Shown here: positions 16,487 to 34,754 of the stretch, piece after piece | Layout of the letters: each line of letters opens with the position of its first letter | Numbering within the stretch: the first letter of the stretch is position 1 | From: Flavobacteriales bacterium | GTDB lineage: Bacteria; Bacteroidota; Bacteroidia; Flavobacteriales_D; Sanyastnellaceae | Length of the DNA: 64,000 nt | Reading direction: 5' to 3' | Assembly (NCBI GenBank): GCA_015665315.1 | Contig: JADFAK010000101.1 | Location: forward strand, 32,433-96,432 | Notes under the pieces: model-generated | The model's input: only the letters and a program-made list of their open reading frames with translations | What the model was told of the DNA's origin: nothing | Databases searched by the model: none | Position numbers and translations under genes: made by a program

Positions 16487-18157
16487 ATGAGCGAGACAAC
16501 TGAAAGGTCGATGCATTTTATCGAGCAGATTATAGACGAAGATTTAAAGTCGGGTAAACACCAAACGATCGTAACCAGGTTCCCACCTGAGCCGAACGGG
16601 TATTTGCACATTGGACATGCCAAAAGTATTTGTCTGAATTTTGGGCTTGCCAAGCAGTTTGGTGGTAAAACGAATCTTCGCTTCGATGACACCAATCCAG
16701 TAAAAGAGGATGTCTCGTATGTGAATTCAATTCTTGCCGATGTAAAATGGCTTGGTTTCGAGTGGGATTCGGAGCCTCTTTACACCTCCGACTACTTTGA
16801 AACACTCTACGGATTTGCGGTCAAATTGATAAAAAAAGGCTTGGCCTACGTCGATGACCAGTCGGCCGAAGTGATTGCCACCCAGAAGGGCACTCCCACG
16901 GAGCCAGGTGTGAACAGTCCGTATAGAGATCGAAGTATTGAAGAGAATCTTGAACTTTTCTCTCAAATGCGAGAAGGAAAATTTGCCGAAGGCTCAAGAA
17001 TCTTACGCGCCAAGATTGACATGGGGCATTCGAACATGCACATGCGTGATCCATTTTTGTATCGAATCAAATTTGCTACCCACCACCGAACGGGTGACGC
17101 TTGGTGTATATATCCCATGTATGATTTCGCCCATGGTCAGTCAGACTCCCTCGAAGAAATCACGCATTCGTTGTGTACCTTGGAGTTTGAGGTTCACCGA
17201 CCATTGTACAACTGGTTGATAGAGCATTTGGAGATCTATCCATCAAGACAGATTGAATTTGCGCGACTGAACTTGAATTACACGATCATGAGCAAGAGAA
17301 AATTGCTCAAGTTGGTAGAAGACAATGTGGTGGATGGTTGGGATGACCCGAGAATGCCGACAATTTCTGGATTGCGTCGCAGAGGATATACTCCTGAGTC
17401 GATTGTGAATTTTTGCGACCGCGTTGGAATTGCCAAGCGCAATAACGTGATTGATGTTTCCCTTCTGGAATTCAGCGTTCGAGAGCATTTGAACAAGATA
17501 GCACCGCGCGTCATGGGAGTGCTGCATCCTGTGAAGTTGGTCATCAACAATTATCCGGAGGGCAAAACGGAGATGTTACCTACCATCAATAATCCGGAAG
17601 ACGAAAGCATGGGAAGCCGTGAAATTCCTTTTGGACGTGAGATTTGGATCGAAGAAAGTGATTTTATGAAGGAGTCGCCAGGGAAGAAATACTTCCGTTT
17701 GGCACCAGGAACAACCGTTCGCTTGAAATCGGCTTACATAGTAACTTGCACAGGTTTCGAGGAAAATGAAAAAGGCGAAGTCACGACAGTTTTCTGCGAT
17801 TACTTTGAGAATTCTAAGAGTGGATCTGACGTGAGTGGAATTAAGTCGAAGGGAGTCATTCACTGGGTGGAATGCGAGAATGCCGTCGACGGCGAAGTGC
17901 GTCTATACGATCGACTTTTCAACGACGAGGCTCCAGATGGACAAAAGGACAAGGATTTCATGGAGTTCCTAAATCCTGACTCCCTTCAGGTTCTCACGCA
18001 TTGCAAGTTGGAGCCGAGCTTGGCCAATGCCACAGTAGGACAAGGTTTTCAATTCCAGCGATTGGGATATTTTTCGGTCGATTCGAAACTTTCGACACCG
18101 GGAAAACCTGTATTCAATCGAACGGTTACATTGAAAGACGGCTGGAAGAAAGGCTAG
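16487..18157 (+). CDS. glnS: glutamine--tRNA ligase
   Basis: FPPEPNGYLHIGHAKSICLNFG, TIMSKRKLLKLV, class I aaRS; ATG at 16487, TATCTTTG box at 16461-16468. Confidence 0.97.
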   Translation: MSETTERSMHFIEQIIDEDLKSGKHQTIVTRFPPEPNGYLHIGHAKSICLNFGLAKQFGGKTNLRFDDTNPVKEDVSYVNSILADVKWLGFEWDSEPLYTSDYFETLYGFAVKLIKKGLAYVDDQSAEVIATQKGTPTEPGVNSPYRDRSIEENLELFSQMREGKFAEGSRILRAKIDMGHSNMHMRDPFLYRIKFATHHRTGDAWCIYPMYDFAHGQSDSLEEITHSLCTLEFEVHRPLYNWLIEHLEIYPSRQIEFARLNLNYTIMSKRKLLKLVEDNVVDGWDDPRMPTISGLRRRGYTPESIVNFCDRVGIAKRNNVIDVSLLEFSVREHLNKIAPRVMGVLHPVKLVINNYPEGKTEMLPTINNPEDESMGSREIPFGREIWIEESDFMKESPGKKYFRLAPGTTVRLKSAYIVTCTGFEENEKGEVTTVFCDYFENSKSGSDVSGIKSKGVIHWVECENAVDGEVRLYDRLFNDEAPDGQKDKDFMEFLNPDSLQVLTHCKLEPSLANATVGQGFQFQRLGYFSVDSKLSTPGKPVFNRTVTLKDGWKKG

Positions 18158-20598
18158 AGCTCGAGCTGAACTGTAAGATAGAACGCCCGTCCGTCCGATG
18201 GAATGATTCCCGGTCCTGGGTAACCTGCCGCTCTTCTTGTGAAATAAGGAGTGTTTAACGCATTGTTTATACTAAGCGCGAATTGAAATTTCGACACATC
18301 ATACTTTAGGGTGAAGTCAACGATACTGTACGCAGGGATGATTCCGTCGACTCCATTTGGTGTTAGAGTGGCATTTGTAGCGTCTGAGAACTGTTCGCCC
18401 GTATACGAATACTGCGCACTGGCTCCGAATTTATTCAATTTCAATTGCAGTCCGGTTTTAATCGTGAATTCAGGAATTAACTCGACGCGGTTGTCGTAAA
18501 AAGCACTGACTTCTGAATCGGTGTAACGTCCGTAAATCCATGAGCCATTCACAAAAAAGGTGAGGCGGTTGACGTCTTTGATTGATTTGAAAAAGTGGAG
18601 TAGCTCGGTTTCGGCAAAGGCCTCAATTCCTATCGTCCTAGCTTTGGAGATATTGGTACGCAATCGGACTGTTCTTTCGATTAATACTGGATCGGGTACC
18701 GTAGTAAAATACGAGCCAATCCGATCATTGTATTGCAGGAGAAAGGCACTTACGTCAAACTTAATCAACTCTCTCCATTGGCCCCTAAATCCTAGGTCGG
18801 CCGTGTATCCTCGTTCATCCTTGATGTCGGGATCGATGACCGTTCCCAAATTTTTTATTTGGATGTCGGTGAAGTTAATGGCACGGTAGTTTTGATTCCA
18901 ATTGGCGTAAATTTCAATATCCTCACTTTGCTTGTAGGTGAGACCAATACCCGCCAATACGAAATCCCGTTCGCGTGATGATTGTGCGGCGAGTAGCGTG
19001 TCTTCAATTATTTGTCCCGCGCCATCTCGAATGGTTTGTCTGTACTGTCCATCGGCCTTGGTTTGAATCCACTCATAGCGCACCCCAGGAGTAGCAGAGA
19101 GTTTTTTGGTGATTGGAATGATCTCCTGCGTGTATACCGCGACATTCTGATTCGGAAATCTATATTGTGAACCGTCTATTTCCTCATCGGCAATGAATCG
19201 AAATGTAGGCTGATTGGTATCGTCGGCCAGGCCTTGTCGCGCTACGCTAGTGCCGTGGAAATATCTCACACCTCCGGCAAATACAACAAGTTTTTCCTTC
19301 CAGAAGCGCTTGTGTAGGAATCGAGTTTCATTACCCCAATTGCGAAATTTTCCGTCGATCAAATCACGTTCTTGAAGGGGATCGGTTCGATTGGCCTGTC
19401 CGAGATATCCCAAAGCGCTTCTTTGAGCCAACAAGCCGAAAGTCTTACTGGAAAGAGAGGTGAATTGCGAAAAATCATAGTTGAGGTTGACAGAGGCGAG
19501 TTTCCAATCAACGAAGAACCAATTTCGATCCCTGAATGACTGTCGAGGGTTGTCCTTGAAATGGACATCGATTAATCCACCCGCTTGTTTGGCGAGGTAG
19601 CGCATCATAGTCACGTCTGCTTCTACACTTACTTTTCCACCGTTAGACCAACCCGTTCGCAAGTAACCAGTGTGAACTGAGTAGTCACTATTTGGTCGCC
19701 ATCCCGAACCGGTCTTGTTTTGATAGAAGCCGTAATAGGTCCAATTGCTGTTGCTGCCAGAAAGGCTCAGAAATGTATTCGAAGAACTTAAAGGGGAGGT
19801 AATGGAGTCCTGCAGGCCATACGAGCCAACAGTTTGCCGTAATGTGATTTTCAGTCGGCGCTTCGAATCCCCCTTTTTCATTTCAAAATTGAGCAATCCC
19901 CCGAATTGAGGTCCGTACTGCAGGGCAGCCGCCCCACGCACCAAAATGATTTTCTCGACGGCCTCAAGTGGTGGCGTGTAGTAGCTCTCCGGATAGCCAA
20001 GAGGATCGGCTGAAATGTCGTAGAGGTTTTGTCGCACGTTAAAATGGGACGTGCGGTTGGGGCTCAATCCGCGGGCACCTATACCGAGCTGAATCCCGGC
20101 TCCATCGGCCTCCCATATATTAAGTCCGGCAACCTTGTTGTAGACTTGTCGGGTGTTGTTGGTGCTCACGTTGGCCAGACTTTGATCTGGACGAATCAAT
20201 TCATTTTTCATCCCTCTGTATACCGCAGTTCCTTCAACAGCTTGGAGTTGTGTGAGCTGTTTAAGCTCAGTAACTGCCAAGATTTCAACTTCCGAAAGAT
20301 TGAGCTCCAGGGGATCAAGGTATACAACAAGCTTGCTTGCGTTTGCTGTGTTGACTTGTTCGACGCGTGGATTGTATCCCTTTTTGAAAATTGAGATGGA
20401 GTGAACACCATCTTCGACTTCTAAATGACATTTGCCGAAGGCGTCACAATAAAAGACTTTGGGAAGATCATCGAGCTGTATTTCCGACTTCTCGATGGGT
20501 AAAGAATCTCTATTCAAGACTTGAATTTCCACGACTAGCTGCGAACACAACATTGTTGCGAAAGACAGTCCCAAGCAAGTGAGCCAAAATCTAATCAT
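18154..20598 (-). CDS. TonB-dependent receptor (FecA-like)
   Basis: Plug domain (NKVAGLNIWEADGAGIQLGIGARGLSPNRTSHFNVRQN...LVRGAAALQYGPQFGGLLNFEMKKG) and C-terminal barrel; start at MIRFWLTCLG 20598, overlapping the upstream stop by 8 nt. Confidence 0.93.
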   Translation of the reverse strand: MIRFWLTCLGLSFATMLCSQLVVEIQVLNRDSLPIEKSEIQLDDLPKVFYCDAFGKCHLEVEDGVHSISIFKKGYNPRVEQVNTANASKLVVYLDPLELNLSEVEILAVTELKQLTQLQAVEGTAVYRGMKNELIRPDQSLANVSTNNTRQVYNKVAGLNIWEADGAGIQLGIGARGLSPNRTSHFNVRQNLYDISADPLGYPESYYTPPLEAVEKIILVRGAAALQYGPQFGGLLNFEMKKGDSKRRLKITLRQTVGSYGLQDSITSPLSSSNTFLSLSGSNSNWTYYGFYQNKTGSGWRPNSDYSVHTGYLRTGWSNGGKVSVEADVTMMRYLAKQAGGLIDVHFKDNPRQSFRDRNWFFVDWKLASVNLNYDFSQFTSLSSKTFGLLAQRSALGYLGQANRTDPLQERDLIDGKFRNWGNETRFLHKRFWKEKLVVFAGGVRYFHGTSVARQGLADDTNQPTFRFIADEEIDGSQYRFPNQNVAVYTQEIIPITKKLSATPGVRYEWIQTKADGQYRQTIRDGAGQIIEDTLLAAQSSRERDFVLAGIGLTYKQSEDIEIYANWNQNYRAINFTDIQIKNLGTVIDPDIKDERGYTADLGFRGQWRELIKFDVSAFLLQYNDRIGSYFTTVPDPVLIERTVRLRTNISKARTIGIEAFAETELLHFFKSIKDVNRLTFFVNGSWIYGRYTDSEVSAFYDNRVELIPEFTIKTGLQLKLNKFGASAQYSYTGEQFSDATNATLTPNGVDGIIPAYSIVDFTLKYDVSKFQFALSINNALNTPYFTRRAAGYPGPGIIPSDGRAFYLTVQLEL

Positions 20599-21973
20599 CG
20601 GCCTCGCTGTTAAGCATGGTGAAATTGCGTGCTTGCTGCTCATTTTCGAAAGGAAGAATCCAATCTTTGTGCTCCCACGAGTCTTGGATTGCGCCAAGGT
20701 CAACCTTTGGATCTACAAACAAGCGCGAGCCCGAGCCATTGAGCGTGACCCATACGTTGGCCCTGATTTCAGAGTTGACCACACCTTGTTCTTCGTAATG
20801 ATTTCGTAGATAGGCCGCATACTGAAGCAAAAGATCAGGCTGCGTACTCATCATTTTTTCTTGATTGGGCGTGAGGTGGCAACCGTTTCGTACTTCGAGA
20901 TGGCCAGTCAGGGCTGGATCATGCACATAAAATGTAGCTTTCCCGGCTTTTTCCATGAGCATGACTCTCCATGAAAATCTATAGCCTTCTTCGGCCCAAA
21001 AGAGCTTGTCAGGATACAGTAGATAACGAAACGGAAAGACAAATTGAAAAGCGAAAAATGCCGTGAGGAATAGCAAAGAAGCACTGTTTCTTGCTTGGGT
21101 AATTTCGGTTCTTGGTTGAAACCCCATGGTGGAGCTTGCCCAATCAACAAGAGCTCTATGCCACCGAACTGGAAAAAAGACCAATGTCGAAGCCATCATC
21201 ACTAGAGGGAAAATTCCAATTGGAAACAAGATCCCGGTAAATATGTGAAATCCCGCAACGGCTAGGTATGCGGGCAGAACGGTTCGTTTCTTCCAAAGTA
21301 AGAATGGAATGGATAGATCGAAAATAGCACCACCCCAACTCATAATAAAGGCCGTAGACTTATAAGTCAGGAGTGTTCCGATTATTGGTAAATCTGCATG
21401 TTGGGGGAGCCATGTAATGAGAGGCTGAGCGTGAAGCAGCCAGTCTGGATTGATTTTAGCGACTCCGGCAAAGAAATAGACCAGGCCTATCATAAGCTTA
21501 ACTCCGTCCAGCTGCCATCTCGAAATTTCTGTCCAGCCTTTTACAAATCCGAATCGCACATCAAGTGAAAAACTCCTGTTCGCAGGCAATACAACCAACA
21601 CCAAAGCCATACACGAAATGAAGTAGTAGTGATTAAGGTAATTGGCCCTATCAAGCAATTCGATATATGTGAAGGCAAGGAAAAATAGACATATAGCCCA
21701 TCGGTAAAAAAGTCCGACCGATATCAAAATTGCTGAAACTCCTGCCAAGGCAAACAAGAAGTACACACCCCAGTCCGCAGGATAAGGAATCCATTCAAAT
21801 CCGAAATACGCAAAATGAAAATCGGGTTGAATATAGAGTTCGTCAATCCAACCGTAGGCGACAAATCGCAATACGCCAAACAGCATCATTAGCCCAAAGA
21901 TCGCCCTGAAAATTGCCAGAGGCGCGATATCCGTGGTCTTGTTGAGATATGTTCGGCCTATTGTACTAGTCAC
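20591..21973 (-). CDS. vitamin-K-dependent gamma-carboxylase (GGCX)/HTTM-domain integral membrane protein
   Basis: LLDRANYLNHYYF...ANRSFSLD, YFFAGVAKINPDW, IGIFPLVMMASTLVFFP, YRFSWRVMLMEK, VWVTLNGSGSRLFVDPKVDL all align by eye with remembered human GGCX segments. Confidence 0.9.
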   Translation of the reverse strand: MTSTIGRTYLNKTTDIAPLAIFRAIFGLMMLFGVLRFVAYGWIDELYIQPDFHFAYFGFEWIPYPADWGVYFLFALAGVSAILISVGLFYRWAICLFFLAFTYIELLDRANYLNHYYFISCMALVLVVLPANRSFSLDVRFGFVKGWTEISRWQLDGVKLMIGLVYFFAGVAKINPDWLLHAQPLITWLPQHADLPIIGTLLTYKSTAFIMSWGGAIFDLSIPFLLWKKRTVLPAYLAVAGFHIFTGILFPIGIFPLVMMASTLVFFPVRWHRALVDWASSTMGFQPRTEITQARNSASLLFLTAFFAFQFVFPFRYLLYPDKLFWAEEGYRFSWRVMLMEKAGKATFYVHDPALTGHLEVRNGCHLTPNQEKMMSTQPDLLLQYAAYLRNHYEEQGVVNSEIRANVWVTLNGSGSRLFVDPKVDLGAIQDSWEHKDWILPFENEQQARNFTMLNSEADD

Positions 21974-23117
21974 CGTCGTTGTCTTGGTAGGTGATGAGAA
22001 TTCCTAGGGCCGACATCATGTCGACTTTCCACAATACGTTGAGCTGCTGCATGTTGGCGTACAAGTCAAAAGCTTCAACTTGCTGAATATCTACGTATTC
22101 TGACATGGGAGTTGTAATCGCAGCAATACCGGATTTGACAGACAAAATACGGTCGACAATTTCGGTGCTCAATTGTTCCCCATTGTACTGGGCATCAAGA
22201 GAGGCAAGGTAGGAGTCTAGTCCTTTGTAGTCATCTCCATCGTAACCTTGGCCGAGGAAGAGATTTTCAAAAGCAACAACGCTCTCCATCAGGTAATCTT
22301 GTGAATTGGATTGGCCAAAATAGGCTTCGACACGGTCGGGTAGAGGAGTCTGACTAAATGTAAGTGCTCCCACTGGTATTCCGACTTTTTGAGTCCGCGT
22401 ATGTGTTTCGTAGCTCTTGTTAAAAGCATTCAAAAATAGGCCTAAGGAACTTCCTAAATCAGTTCCTGTATTGCTCGTGAAATCATCTTGAAAACTCAAT
22501 CCTGACTGTGTCCACATGTCATAGACTTCGTGCGCTTGACTTGCGAGAGTACTCGTAAGTAAGGTCAGGAATTCTTGTCGGTCTGGAGATTCGTCCGTGG
22601 TAGTGAATTCATTCAGCAACTCTTGATCGGTGAACGACAGTGGCCCATGCAGTAAATAGTCGATTGCTGGCAGACCACGAGCAGCAAAGTTGGACACCGA
22701 TTCGATTTCGAAATCAGATGTACTGATCTTTGATTGAATCAATGCTGTATCTGTTGGATAAACGTTGGTTGTAGCTTGGAGTGCCAAATCTTCCGCAGGT
22801 CCAAAATCGAACATCGCTATATTTTGCCAAGCCAGACTTACAGCATGAAGCCTAGACCTACATTCGGATAACTTGTCCAAGTCGGGAGCAACAACGAAGG
22901 ACTGGCAGCATTGATTTAAACTATCCGTGTATTGCTTATAGTCCAGATAAGCCGGTAGAATAGAGTGCTCCACCAATCCCGTCAAATATGCTTGTCTGTC
23001 AAAAACATTGCAATCAACAGCATCGGTTTTTTTCTTGCAACCAACCGCTAGGCCAATGGCAAGAATGAAGGCGAATAGAAATAGTGATTTATGCCGCTTG
23101 GGACAAAGAGTAATCAT
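21966..23117 (-). CDS. imelysin-like lipoprotein (peptidase M75/iron-regulated protein A family)
   Basis: Start MITLCPKRHKSLFLFAFILAIGLAVGCKKK (lipobox); AWQNIAMFDFGPAEDLAL, GLPAIDYLLHGP; overlap of 8 nt with the GGCX-like gene. Confidence 0.85.
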   Translation of the reverse strand: MITLCPKRHKSLFLFAFILAIGLAVGCKKKTDAVDCNVFDRQAYLTGLVEHSILPAYLDYKQYTDSLNQCCQSFVVAPDLDKLSECRSRLHAVSLAWQNIAMFDFGPAEDLALQATTNVYPTDTALIQSKISTSDFEIESVSNFAARGLPAIDYLLHGPLSFTDQELLNEFTTTDESPDRQEFLTLLTSTLASQAHEVYDMWTQSGLSFQDDFTSNTGTDLGSSLGLFLNAFNKSYETHTRTQKVGIPVGALTFSQTPLPDRVEAYFGQSNSQDYLMESVVAFENLFLGQGYDGDDYKGLDSYLASLDAQYNGEQLSTEIVDRILSVKSGIAAITTPMSEYVDIQQVEAFDLYANMQQLNVLWKVDMMSALGILITYQDNDGD

Positions 23118-23127
23118 ATGTCTAGAA

Positions 23128-24348
23128 TTAAAGGGAGTCGGCGACTGAACCAAGTCCAAATTGGGCGGCCAGTTCATCTTTGACCAGATTGAGATCGGCC
23201 GACGTAACGGCATAGAAGTCCGTTCCAATCGTATTAAGCCATTCGTCAATCACACTTACAGTTAGGCCATCCAATTGTCCAAAACGCAGAGCGTCGATAA
23301 AGGCCCAAGCTTCACTTAGCTGGTGGTTTCTCAGCGCATGGTCTGAAAGATTATCCAATGTCCCATTCAGATAATGAATAGCAGTGGCCGCAGAAACGAG
23401 CGAGAAATCTTGTTGAATGCGCTCAATTTGAGAATCTCTAGTGATGTAGTCTTTGGCAGCAATAGCTGCTCGACCGGTTCGAAAGGCTAGAGATAGGTTG
23501 TCGGCCAACTCTAAAAGATCGTTTCTACCAAGGGCATATTTTCCCCAAAAATGATCTGTCCCATCGGTCGGGAAATTGATTCCATCGGTCAAATATCCAT
23601 AGGCTTCATCCCAATGATGCTCCATGGCTGTGTAATACTTGCCATTTTCAGGATCAGTGGCAGCATCATTGTCAACGTTGATTTCGTTGTCAGATAAATA
23701 CCACATTGTGCACTGATTATAGAACACGGCACCCATCAAGCCTTTCTCAACCATTTCCGCCAGGTCCCATCCTTGGGCATTCATTAGGTATGCTTTGTCT
23801 GGGTTGGTAGTACTTTGAACCACCCCTGCGACTCCTGGTCCGCCAGAGAACTCTTGATCAATTGTTGTTTCGCTTATAGCATCGAGTTGATCGAATAAAT
23901 CTTCGAAATAGGCCTGCCATGTCGGATCTGCACTCCCGCCGGAAGCTGCTGTTTTTCCTTTTAAATTCTTGGTGCTTTCATTCAGACCGAGTCCTTCTGC
24001 GTCTGCCCATATGAAACCTTCGTTGGCATACATGTTCCTGAGCGTTTGCGCGTCAACTGATACTCCTGGGGTATTTGCACTTTCGATGTAATCGATTAGT
24101 TCAATCAACATGTGCTGACGTTGTGTTTGCCCTGAAAATGACACTGTGCTATTGCCGGCTTCATCTTCGAAAGAGTACGTGGTAGGGATAGTTAAACCGT
24201 TTTCCGGGTAGGTACAACTTCCATCATCCTTCTTGGCCTTTTCATCGAAATTCAACGCGTTTGAATCTGTGCATCCTTCACGATTGCATGAAGTGGCGAG
24301 AATTATTGTTGCGAAAAGTAAAAATGCAGTGTGAGAAAAGAATTTCAT
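23128..24348 (-). CDS. DUF4856 domain-containing lipoprotein
   Basis: CTDSNALNFDEKAKKDDGSCTYPENGLTIPTTYSFED...SFSGQTQRQHMLIELIDYIES; lipobox ATSCNREG. Confidence 0.85.
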   Translation of the reverse strand: MKFFSHTAFLLFATIILATSCNREGCTDSNALNFDEKAKKDDGSCTYPENGLTIPTTYSFEDEAGNSTVSFSGQTQRQHMLIELIDYIESANTPGVSVDAQTLRNMYANEGFIWADAEGLGLNESTKNLKGKTAASGGSADPTWQAYFEDLFDQLDAISETTIDQEFSGGPGVAGVVQSTTNPDKAYLMNAQGWDLAEMVEKGLMGAVFYNQCTMWYLSDNEINVDNDAATDPENGKYYTAMEHHWDEAYGYLTDGINFPTDGTDHFWGKYALGRNDLLELADNLSLAFRTGRAAIAAKDYITRDSQIERIQQDFSLVSAATAIHYLNGTLDNLSDHALRNHQLSEAWAFIDALRFGQLDGLTVSVIDEWLNTIGTDFYAVTSADLNLVKDELAAQFGLGSVADSL

Positions 24349-24372
24349 GATTTAATGCTTTGTTTGAGCCGA

Positions 24373-24380
24373 CAAAGCTA
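24373..24380 (-). promoter_or_regulatory. TAGCTTTG -7-type box upstream of the DUF4856/imelysin/GGCX/TonB operon
   Basis: CAAAGCTA on + = TAGCTTTG on -; ATTG about 20 nt upstream. Confidence 0.5.
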
Positions 24381-24417
24381 TACTAGTGGTTGTCTGAGGA
24401 CAATACCTTATTAGCGG

Positions 24418-24438
24418 TATTTAGATTGAATCTAAATA
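24418..24438. promoter_or_regulatory. perfect 21-bp palindrome TATTTAGATTGAATCTAAATA (candidate operator)
   Basis: 10-1-10 inverted repeat centred at 24428, upstream of the putative operon promoter. Confidence 0.7.
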
Positions 24439-24454
24439 AAAGCCAAGGGTGATT

Positions 24455-25990
24455 TTAGGAGCGTTTGAACACGAGAAGGGCACCAATGGCAATAAGTAGG
24501 AGGAAGAATCCTAGTACCCATAATCTGTATTGCTCGAATACGAATTTGATCAGAATCCAGATGTTAGATTTCTTTTCAGGAATAAGTATTGAGTCTGTGT
24601 TAAATTCCTCACTTAAATGAAGAGCAGCGAAATGCGGACGGTTCAGAGCGAATTCGCGCATATCTCGAACAGACTCTTGCCAAGTGATATAGTCTGTAGG
24701 ATACCCCCATCTCAGCACTTGGTTTTCAATTTCTGGCGACACGAGTAGGGAGATCGAATCGATTTTATGCGTCACAGCTTCTGTGTTGAGGCAGACCTCT
24801 TGTAATTCTCTGTAACGCTGAATGTAATCATGCCTGAATTGAGCATTTGCGCGTAGCGCTGACCATAACCTTGAAACTATTTTGCCTTTCTTTTCAATGT
24901 GCGCGTACATATTTTGATCTTCAACCTGAAAAGTGGCGTCTAAATCGATGAGAGCCAATTTGAGTGGCCCATCACCAATTCGATAAAACTGCACATTGTT
25001 GTTGCCAGCCCAATCCAAATTTCTAAAAAATGTTTCGAAAATCATGTAGTCTATGAAATTCTCCAAGTCCAAGTATTGAGCGATTGAATCCAGGAAATTA
25101 GCACTGTTTGGTTGTTGTTTGGCAATAAAACCCTGCAAGGCGATGAGTGTTGAGTCCTGAAACTTATCATCCATAACTATACTTTTCGGACTCACCTGAT
25201 GAAAATCGGAGTAGAAATTCTCGGATGGGCGAGGCCGCAAATGCATTAAGCCCCAATAGACACCATTGATGTAACAAGCGACGGGTTGAAATTCGATAGG
25301 GGCAAGTGAAGAGCAGTCGACCAAGGAATGCACCACCATGTCGGCTATAACATTTCCCGTGTGGCTGCTAAACGGGGAACGCATCAATAAATAGGGAAGC
25401 GGCTGGTCGTGACCGAAAAAGGGATAATCCAATCCACTCGGGTTCATATCCAATCGCTCACAAAGTCGAAGGGATTTCTGTGGTGAAGATCGTGCCAAGA
25501 GGCCATGTGTTCGCAGACCACAATTTGATTGAAATACGAGTCGGCCCTTTTCATAGTAAGAAATTGAAACAGGTCTTTCCCATTTTGACCCGCGTTGTTG
25601 GTAATTACCAGAATAAACGGAGTGTTTTTGGTTCCAAGTGGCCCCGGGGATTAGGATTCCGTCTTGCTGGTCAAAAAGATTAGTTTCATCTGTGAACAAT
25701 GACAGGACGGGAATACTAGGAGCTTCGGCCTTTTCGAGAACCAGATAATGGCGTGTCGAATGTGAATCGGAAAAGAGTTTACCCGAACGCACCATAGTAG
25801 GAGCGTGCCAGACAAATCTCACAGGGTCCAAACCTTGAACCGAATCGGTTGGGGTGGTGGGGATGTAGGCAATTTCTGTATTGACTATCTGCTCAGCCCA
25901 AGTTGCATCCTTTGGTGGCTCATAGAGTGATTGTCCAAAACCGCACTGAAAGCAGAGAACAAGAGAAAAGATGGTTAGAGAACGTTTCAA
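24455..25990 (-). CDS. CotH kinase family protein with C-terminal transmembrane helix
   Basis: PVLSLFTDETNLFDQQDGILIPG, GNYQQRGSKWERPVSISYYE, GLRTHGLLARSSPQKSLRL, NVQFYRIGDGPLKLALIDLDATF; C-terminal WVLGFFLLLIAIGALLVF. Confidence 0.85.
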   Translation of the reverse strand: MKRSLTIFSLVLCFQCGFGQSLYEPPKDATWAEQIVNTEIAYIPTTPTDSVQGLDPVRFVWHAPTMVRSGKLFSDSHSTRHYLVLEKAEAPSIPVLSLFTDETNLFDQQDGILIPGATWNQKHSVYSGNYQQRGSKWERPVSISYYEKGRLVFQSNCGLRTHGLLARSSPQKSLRLCERLDMNPSGLDYPFFGHDQPLPYLLMRSPFSSHTGNVIADMVVHSLVDCSSLAPIEFQPVACYINGVYWGLMHLRPRPSENFYSDFHQVSPKSIVMDDKFQDSTLIALQGFIAKQQPNSANFLDSIAQYLDLENFIDYMIFETFFRNLDWAGNNNVQFYRIGDGPLKLALIDLDATFQVEDQNMYAHIEKKGKIVSRLWSALRANAQFRHDYIQRYRELQEVCLNTEAVTHKIDSISLLVSPEIENQVLRWGYPTDYITWQESVRDMREFALNRPHFAALHLSEEFNTDSILIPEKKSNIWILIKFVFEQYRLWVLGFFLLLIAIGALLVFKRS

Positions 25991-33345: not shown

Positions 33346-33374
33346 GAAGGTCAACGCTTTATAGTTAATTTAGA

Positions 33375-34754
33375 ATGATTACAAATAACAAGTCGAAAGT
33401 AGGAATCATAGAAGTGGCAAGGAGTGACAAGTTTTCCTTCCTTTCACTGTTCATAGTCTTGTGGATATCTGTTGGAATTTCAACCAGTTTGTCAGCTTTT
33501 TCACATAGTTACGGTGAAGAGGCAAGCGAGGAAGATAGAATGGATGGTTTAGTAATGGCCGATATGATCTACAAGGAGTCCATTCATAGTATTCGTGTTC
33601 ATTTAGATGGTAGTCCAATATCTCCACCTTTTAAAGAGCTACAATCGGCTTCCCAGTTTATGGTGACTTTTGATGATTTGGCCGAAGGCTTCGCCGATTA
33701 TTACTATACCCTGATCCATTGCAACCCTTGGTGGGAGCCTTCGGATTTAGAAACCTCAGAATATATAAGAGGTTTCCCGGAAAACAGCATTACAGATTAC
33801 GAGCAGAGCTTTAATACCTCCACAGACTACAAACACTATTCGTTCAAATTCCCCAACGATATGTGTCAGCTTACGCTCTCAGGAAATTACCTGCTTTATG
33901 TCTTTGAAGATGGCGACCAGGAAATGCCGGTGTTCTCGTCGCGGATTGTGATTTTTGAGCCGCTTGTAGCCGTTACCGCCCGTGTGCATGAGTCGTCCAT
34001 CATCGGAGAACGTCGGTACCAACAAGAAGTCGATTTCAGTATCGATCACCAGAATTTTGCCATTCCAAATCCATACGAGGACTTAGCCGTGGCAGTACTT
34101 CAAAACAATCGTTGGGACAATGCAAAGCTGGACCTGGAGCCGCGTTTTGTAATGGATCGGCAACTTGATTTCGACTATGGAGAGCAAAATAACTTCATGG
34201 GAAACAATGAGTTTCGCGAACTCGACCTGAAAAATTTTAAATTCATCACCCTGCGCGTAGATAGCACTGTTCAACTGCGGGATGGATTCCATACGTGGGT
34301 AAAGAAAGATCCCATGCGCACCTTTACGCAGTATCGAACCGTGCGAGATATCAATGGGAAGTTTTTGCCCTTCAATGACAATGGATTTGATTCTGACTTA
34401 GAGGCAGATTACTCATACTGCCATTTCACTTTGCCCTTTGAGATTCCCCTGAGCGATGTTGATTTCTATGTCTTCGGAGCAATTTCTCAATGGAATTGCA
34501 GTGAAAAGTTCAAATTGCGCTATGATTATGAGTTACATGCTTACACCGCCACAATTTTATTGAAACAAGGTTATTACAACTACGCCTATGCCGCAGTAAA
34601 GAAAGGGCAGGAGGCCTATGACCTAACTGTAGCCGAAGGCAATCACGCCGAAACTGAAAACGAATACCAAATTTTCGTTTACAACTATGATATAGCCAAG
34701 GATTACTACCGAGTTATCGGAGCTTTCTTCACGAATAGCTTCAACAATCAGTAA
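33375..34754 (+). CDS. DUF5103 family protein (type IX secretion system plug protein)
   Basis: SIRVHLDGSPISPPFKELQSASQFMVTFDDLAEGFADYYYTLIHCNPWWEPSDLETSEYIRGF...SNYSFKFPND-type pattern. Confidence 0.88.
   Translation: MITNNKSKVGIIEVARSDKFSFLSLFIVLWISVGISTSLSAFSHSYGEEASEEDRMDGLVMADMIYKESIHSIRVHLDGSPISPPFKELQSASQFMVTFDDLAEGFADYYYTLIHCNPWWEPSDLETSEYIRGFPENSITDYEQSFNTSTDYKHYSFKFPNDMCQLTLSGNYLLYVFEDGDQEMPVFSSRIVIFEPLVAVTARVHESSIIGERRYQQEVDFSIDHQNFAIPNPYEDLAVAVLQNNRWDNAKLDLEPRFVMDRQLDFDYGEQNNFMGNNEFRELDLKNFKFITLRVDSTVQLRDGFHTWVKKDPMRTFTQYRTVRDINGKFLPFNDNGFDSDLEADYSYCHFTLPFEIPLSDVDFYVFGAISQWNCSEKFKLRYDYELHAYTATILLKQGYYNYAYAAVKKGQEAYDLTVAEGNHAETENEYQIFVYNYDIAKDYYRVIGAFFTNSFNNQ

Follow-up and report, generated by a model that had tools for sequence, protein, structure and literature searches.

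Iron-responsive control resembling that predicted for the locus studied here has been described for its closest characterized relative, Riemerella anatipestifer, which also belongs to the order Flavobacteriales (PMC11967795). The Fur box of this species reads ATTTAGAATTATTCTAAAT (ATTTAGA-N5-TCTAAAT) and is supported by EMSA and by a Fur-box mutant (PMC5609570, PMC10986502, PMC11967795); metal-dependent Fur binding and iron-dependent repression have been demonstrated there. Table 4 of one of these papers lists, under consecutive locus tags, a TonB receptor, a vitamin K-dependent gamma-carboxylase, an imelysin lipoprotein, and a hypothetical protein, a gene set that is Fur-regulated and induced under iron restriction; the fold changes of this operon in a fur mutant in the presence of iron are modest, 1.4-1.9 (PMC5609570). 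A different type of iron regulator, MliR, resembles MerR and activates iron genes in Bizionia (marine Bacteroidetes); when mliR is deleted, expression of an imelysin-like gene, of TonB receptors, and of genes for Fe2+ uptake decreases (PMC9478572). The classical Fur box of Escherichia coli, GATAATGATAATCATTATC, is an AT-rich palindromic operator upstream of iron uptake genes.

The window, i.e. the whole 64,000-nucleotide stretch of DNA analyzed here, harbors an operon of four genes on the minus strand that, judged by content and order, appears equivalent to the Riemerella gene set of Table 4. The operon and its upstream neighbor comprise:

18154..20703, minus strand: FecA-like TonB-dependent receptor (PF00593; the best NCBIfam model is FecA, with a score below the cut-off)
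20591..21973, minus strand: HTTM / vitamin K-dependent gamma-carboxylase-like membrane protein (PF05090, PF22777)
21966..23249, minus strand: imelysin (Peptidase_M75, PF09375), whose real start probably lies downstream of the listed TTG
23128..24348, minus strand: DUF4856 lipoprotein-like gene (PF16148), first gene of the operon
24455-25990, minus strand: CotH gene, co-directional with DUF4856

The CotH/DUF4856 intergenic gap (24349-24454) spans 106 nt and contains the promoter and two palindromes, denoted A and B; a further A-like site is found elsewhere in the window:

24373..24380, minus strand: -7 promoter element TAGCTTTG, read from the sequence and from the conserved spacing to GGTATTG
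24401..24403, minus strand: -33 promoter element TTG, within GGTATTG
24402..24421, no strand: palindrome B, AATACC-TTATTAGC-GGTATT (minus strand AATACCGCTAATAAGGTATT), a second conserved operator-like site
24418..24438, no strand: palindrome A, the probable Fur box TATTTAGATTGAATCTAAATA, 21 bp, 10-1-10, zero mismatches
33367..33387, no strand: degenerate putative Fur box with 3 mismatches, located 83 nt before nqrA (nqrABCDEF-apbE genes)

The original prediction had drawn attention to a perfect 21-bp palindrome upstream of DUF4856, to a box about 40 nt away from it, and to a metal-responsive regulator of the Fur or DtxR family as its possible user. The first two points stand, and the third is supported: TATTTAGATTGAATCTAAATA occupies 24418-24438 without a mismatch, TAGCTTTG lies 37 nt away at 24380-24373 on the minus strand, and of the two regulator families Fur is the one supported, by the match to the Riemerella box and by gaps in the occurrence of DtxR. 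Palindrome A is the sole perfect 10-1-10 palindrome in the window. Since simulation yields on average 0.2 such palindromes per window, its symmetry alone is weakly surprising, and the case is built on conservation.

Outside its variable 5-bp center, palindrome A is identical to the Riemerella Fur consensus (ATTTAGA-N5-TCTAAAT). Both systems have in common the TTTAGA-N5-TCTAAA dyad, the order Flavobacteriales, and the four-gene set, which in Riemerella is under Fur/iron control; they differ in that the Riemerella box table gives no box for this operon, and the accessible parts of the Riemerella papers contain no account of an overlap with AATACC-N8-GGTATT. The E. coli box resembles palindrome A in its AT-rich palindromic layout, its position upstream of iron uptake genes, and its binding by a homologous Fur, predicted for palindrome A; direct comparison gives identity at only 6 of 19 positions, the window motif being lineage-specific. 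The genome harbors a Fur homologue (PF01475, 89 bits) that aligns to solved Fur structures. It also encodes one protein of the DtxR family and another, weaker member of the FUR family. The TTTAGA-N-TCTAAA arrangement is, by eye, also like DtxR-type operators, and the DtxR-family protein of this genome adjoins a ZIP transporter; an operator of the DtxR/MntR family is nevertheless very improbable, as A-bearing genomes without a PF01325 protein exist (G008, G019, G062, G092, and G116), the DtxR-family protein obtains its highest score as MntR, its locus is devoid of the motif, and the Riemerella regulator acting on this motif is Fur (PMC5609570, PMC10986502). Every A-bearing genome encodes a FUR-family protein (in G223 a weak one only). 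Since A-bearing genomes lacking DtxR exist and all of them possess a FUR-family protein, palindrome A is filed as a Fur box, and it very probably is one, placed in front of an iron-uptake operon. Sequence, conservation, geometry, and the Fur homologue were observed directly, control by Fur comes from the Riemerella literature, and we infer from these that the Fur of this genome would bind here. Three genomes (G056, G059, and G215) show no detectable FUR-family protein, no A at up to 2 mismatches, and no exact B; as many Fur-bearing genomes also lack A and B, this co-absence is weak evidence.

For searches, the family motif of palindrome A was defined as TATTTAGA-N5-TCTAAATA. Copies before other iron or TonB genes, the check proposed in the original prediction, were indeed detected, at suf in the same genome and at nqr and TonB-receptor promoters in relatives. 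A single further exact match is present in the same genome, 58 nt before sufA-sufB; this exact A-type palindrome (L060:1501-1521; C4:61680-61700) falls within the -33/-7 interval of that promoter. Sites with 2 mismatches precede sufE and a multiheme cytochrome gene. At 3 mismatches, matches in the genome do not exceed the reversed-pattern control (26 vs 38), so only the best A sites are trustworthy, and the nqrA site as well as most weaker A sites are left with position and orthologues as their support. The degenerate box at 33367-33387 may be recognized by the regulator of palindrome A as well; nqrA in another genus (L037) is preceded by a better A site with 2 mismatches. Among 60 related genomes, the motif yields 32 forward sites at up to 2 mismatches vs 1 in the reversed-pattern control, and the adjoining genes, named from their translations, include sufA-sufB, nqrA, sdhC, feoB, and TonB receptors.

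The motif is likewise conserved upstream of DUF4856 orthologues. In a set of 30 DUF4856 orthologues chosen by protein similarity alone, nearly all carry the motif directly upstream. Among the named DUF4856 loci with usable upstream DNA, 62 of 78 carry it at up to 2 mismatches vs about 0.4% of control windows, which include coding DNA; as the loci are interrelated and the two sets overlap in part, the 78 loci are not independent observations. Palindrome A is therefore neither unique nor unconserved upstream of orthologues (62/78). Its distribution also bears on a role purely as transcription terminator of CotH. The palindrome begins 17 nt past the CotH stop, and a 9-bp stem of AU pairs can form in the minus-strand RNA (z = -2.4), but the site shows neither a U-tract nor a G+C-rich stem and was not called as a terminator. 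Its placement with respect to the DUF4856 promoter is conserved, and other promoters contain it as well, making a mere terminator extremely improbable.

On the minus strand, from CotH to the DUF4856 start, the promoter reads TATTTAGATTCAATCTAAATACCGCTAATAAGGTATTG-N20-TAGCTTTG, with TTG (24403-24401), a 20-nt spacer, and TAGCTTTG forming a -33/-7 promoter of the Bacteroidota type. The GGTATTG-N20-TANNTTTG spacing is conserved, the -7 element following 20 nt after GGTATTG in most copies. Comparison of these promoters revealed palindrome B, which was absent from the original prediction. Its far half shares 4 bp with palindrome A, and its near half covers the -33 element. Among the loci compared, 28 exact copies occur at spacer 8 and at most 2 at any other spacer. 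The 60 relatives contain 75 exact copies vs 10 in the reversed control, and B is exact in 49 of 78 DUF4856 promoters vs 0.5% of control windows. Other B sites precede feoA/feoB, sufA, TonB-receptor genes, and an imelysin gene, so that B is conserved in front of iron genes across the Flavobacteriales; in the majority of feo promoters, B occurs without A. The same genome holds a single other exact copy, at feoB (L073:1501-1520; C22:29823-29842), where it occupies the -33 position without a Fur box, and feoB of the same-genus genome G148 (L224) likewise shows B alone. Two Marivirga loci (L346 and L353, Cytophagales orthologues) lack B and carry two closely spaced A-like boxes. A literature search for the AATACC/GGTATT palindrome returned nothing relevant, so that palindrome B is apparently undescribed so far.

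Several regulators were considered as users of palindrome B. DtxR was rejected as a common binder, being absent from several B-bearing genomes, and so was Rrf2/IscR, with no PF02082 match in the B-bearing genomes G005, G007, G008, G019, G027, G039, G053, G101, G104, and G164. The LexA motifs of Bacteroidetes (GGA-N5-TCC and CTAA-N5-TTAG; PMC8565304) match neither A nor B, and no motif match was found for HaeR of Porphyromonas. A FUR-family protein occurs in all B-bearing genomes, which keeps Fur among the conceivable binders; it may bind palindrome B as well as A. A small MerR-type protein like MliR would fit the B regulon as a candidate binder: the gene classes controlled by MliR in Bizionia are those carrying palindrome B, and the genome of the window encodes a MerR-type protein of similar size (111 aa; L275:1719-2054). 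No MliR binding site was found in PMC9478572; it can be hypothesized that MliR acts through palindrome B and that the 111-aa protein is its equivalent. Small MerR proteins are encoded in nearly all B-bearing genomes (G025 contains a fragment only), and they are near-universal, so their co-presence with B does not discriminate. Neither palindrome recurs, exactly or approximately, upstream of the Fur, DtxR, Rrf2, and MerR genes that were examined; hence, autoregulation gave no clue to the regulator.

The arrangement of the two palindromes is informative about how Fur could act. In the window, palindrome A and the -33 TTG are 14 nt apart, with A on the upstream side and its center some 60 bp before the predicted start site, and the overlap of a classical Fur box with core promoter or start site is not seen here. 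This position counts against Fur as a classical repressor of this promoter, start-site occlusion not being the obvious mode. A box center near -60 would also suit an iron-dependent activator at a class I position. This is consistent with the rigid spacing of A to the -33 element (offset to B of -17, -18, or -20 in 21 promoters) and with the rise of Riemerella suf genes with iron reported in PMC5609570; however, the same source describes the equivalent Riemerella operon as induced, not lowered, by iron restriction, and in many relatives this operon has its box over the start site, which is a repressor position. Activation by Fur at this operon is accordingly improbable. Elsewhere, Fur might be an activator at some sites, given that iron-using genes (suf and nqr) are preceded by this motif as well.

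The two palindromes occur together in 52 promoters. In 25 of these, A overlaps or adjoins B, on the upstream side in 21 (the arrangement of the window) and on the downstream side in 4; in another 26, A is found 46-61 bp downstream of B, over the start site. Two DUF4856 upstream regions (L330 and L370) show the order B-A-B, in which the Fur box is flanked on each side by a B that it overlaps or abuts. The suf promoters of related genomes have B inside the -33/-7 spacer and A after the -7 box. The location of Fur boxes over either the start site or the edge of B suggests that Fur displaces whatever binds B. With Fur as repressor, iron-loaded dimers would bind A when iron is plentiful and lower transcription of the DUF4856-imelysin-HTTM-TonB receptor operon; when iron is scarce, Fur would leave A and the operon would be made. 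Repression would follow from Fur occupying the start site or obstructing the user of B, and at the window promoter Fur would keep another protein, most likely an activator, off palindrome B. This displacement step is proposed tentatively. Equally tentative is the wider picture of a two-palindrome switch, in which AATACC-N8-GGTATT could be the operator of a second Flavobacteriales iron regulator, with MliR as candidate, that is evicted by iron-loaded Fur.

Present knowledge on iron control in Bacteroidota stems from few species. The probable Fur box would link the operon of imelysin, DUF4856, and the carboxylase-like protein, whose function is unsettled, to iron across the whole order. Conservation of palindrome B is more exact than that of the Fur box. 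Common to feoAB and suf, this palindrome represents a ready DNA probe for finding a putative iron regulator; used in this way, it would make what MliR binds directly testable.
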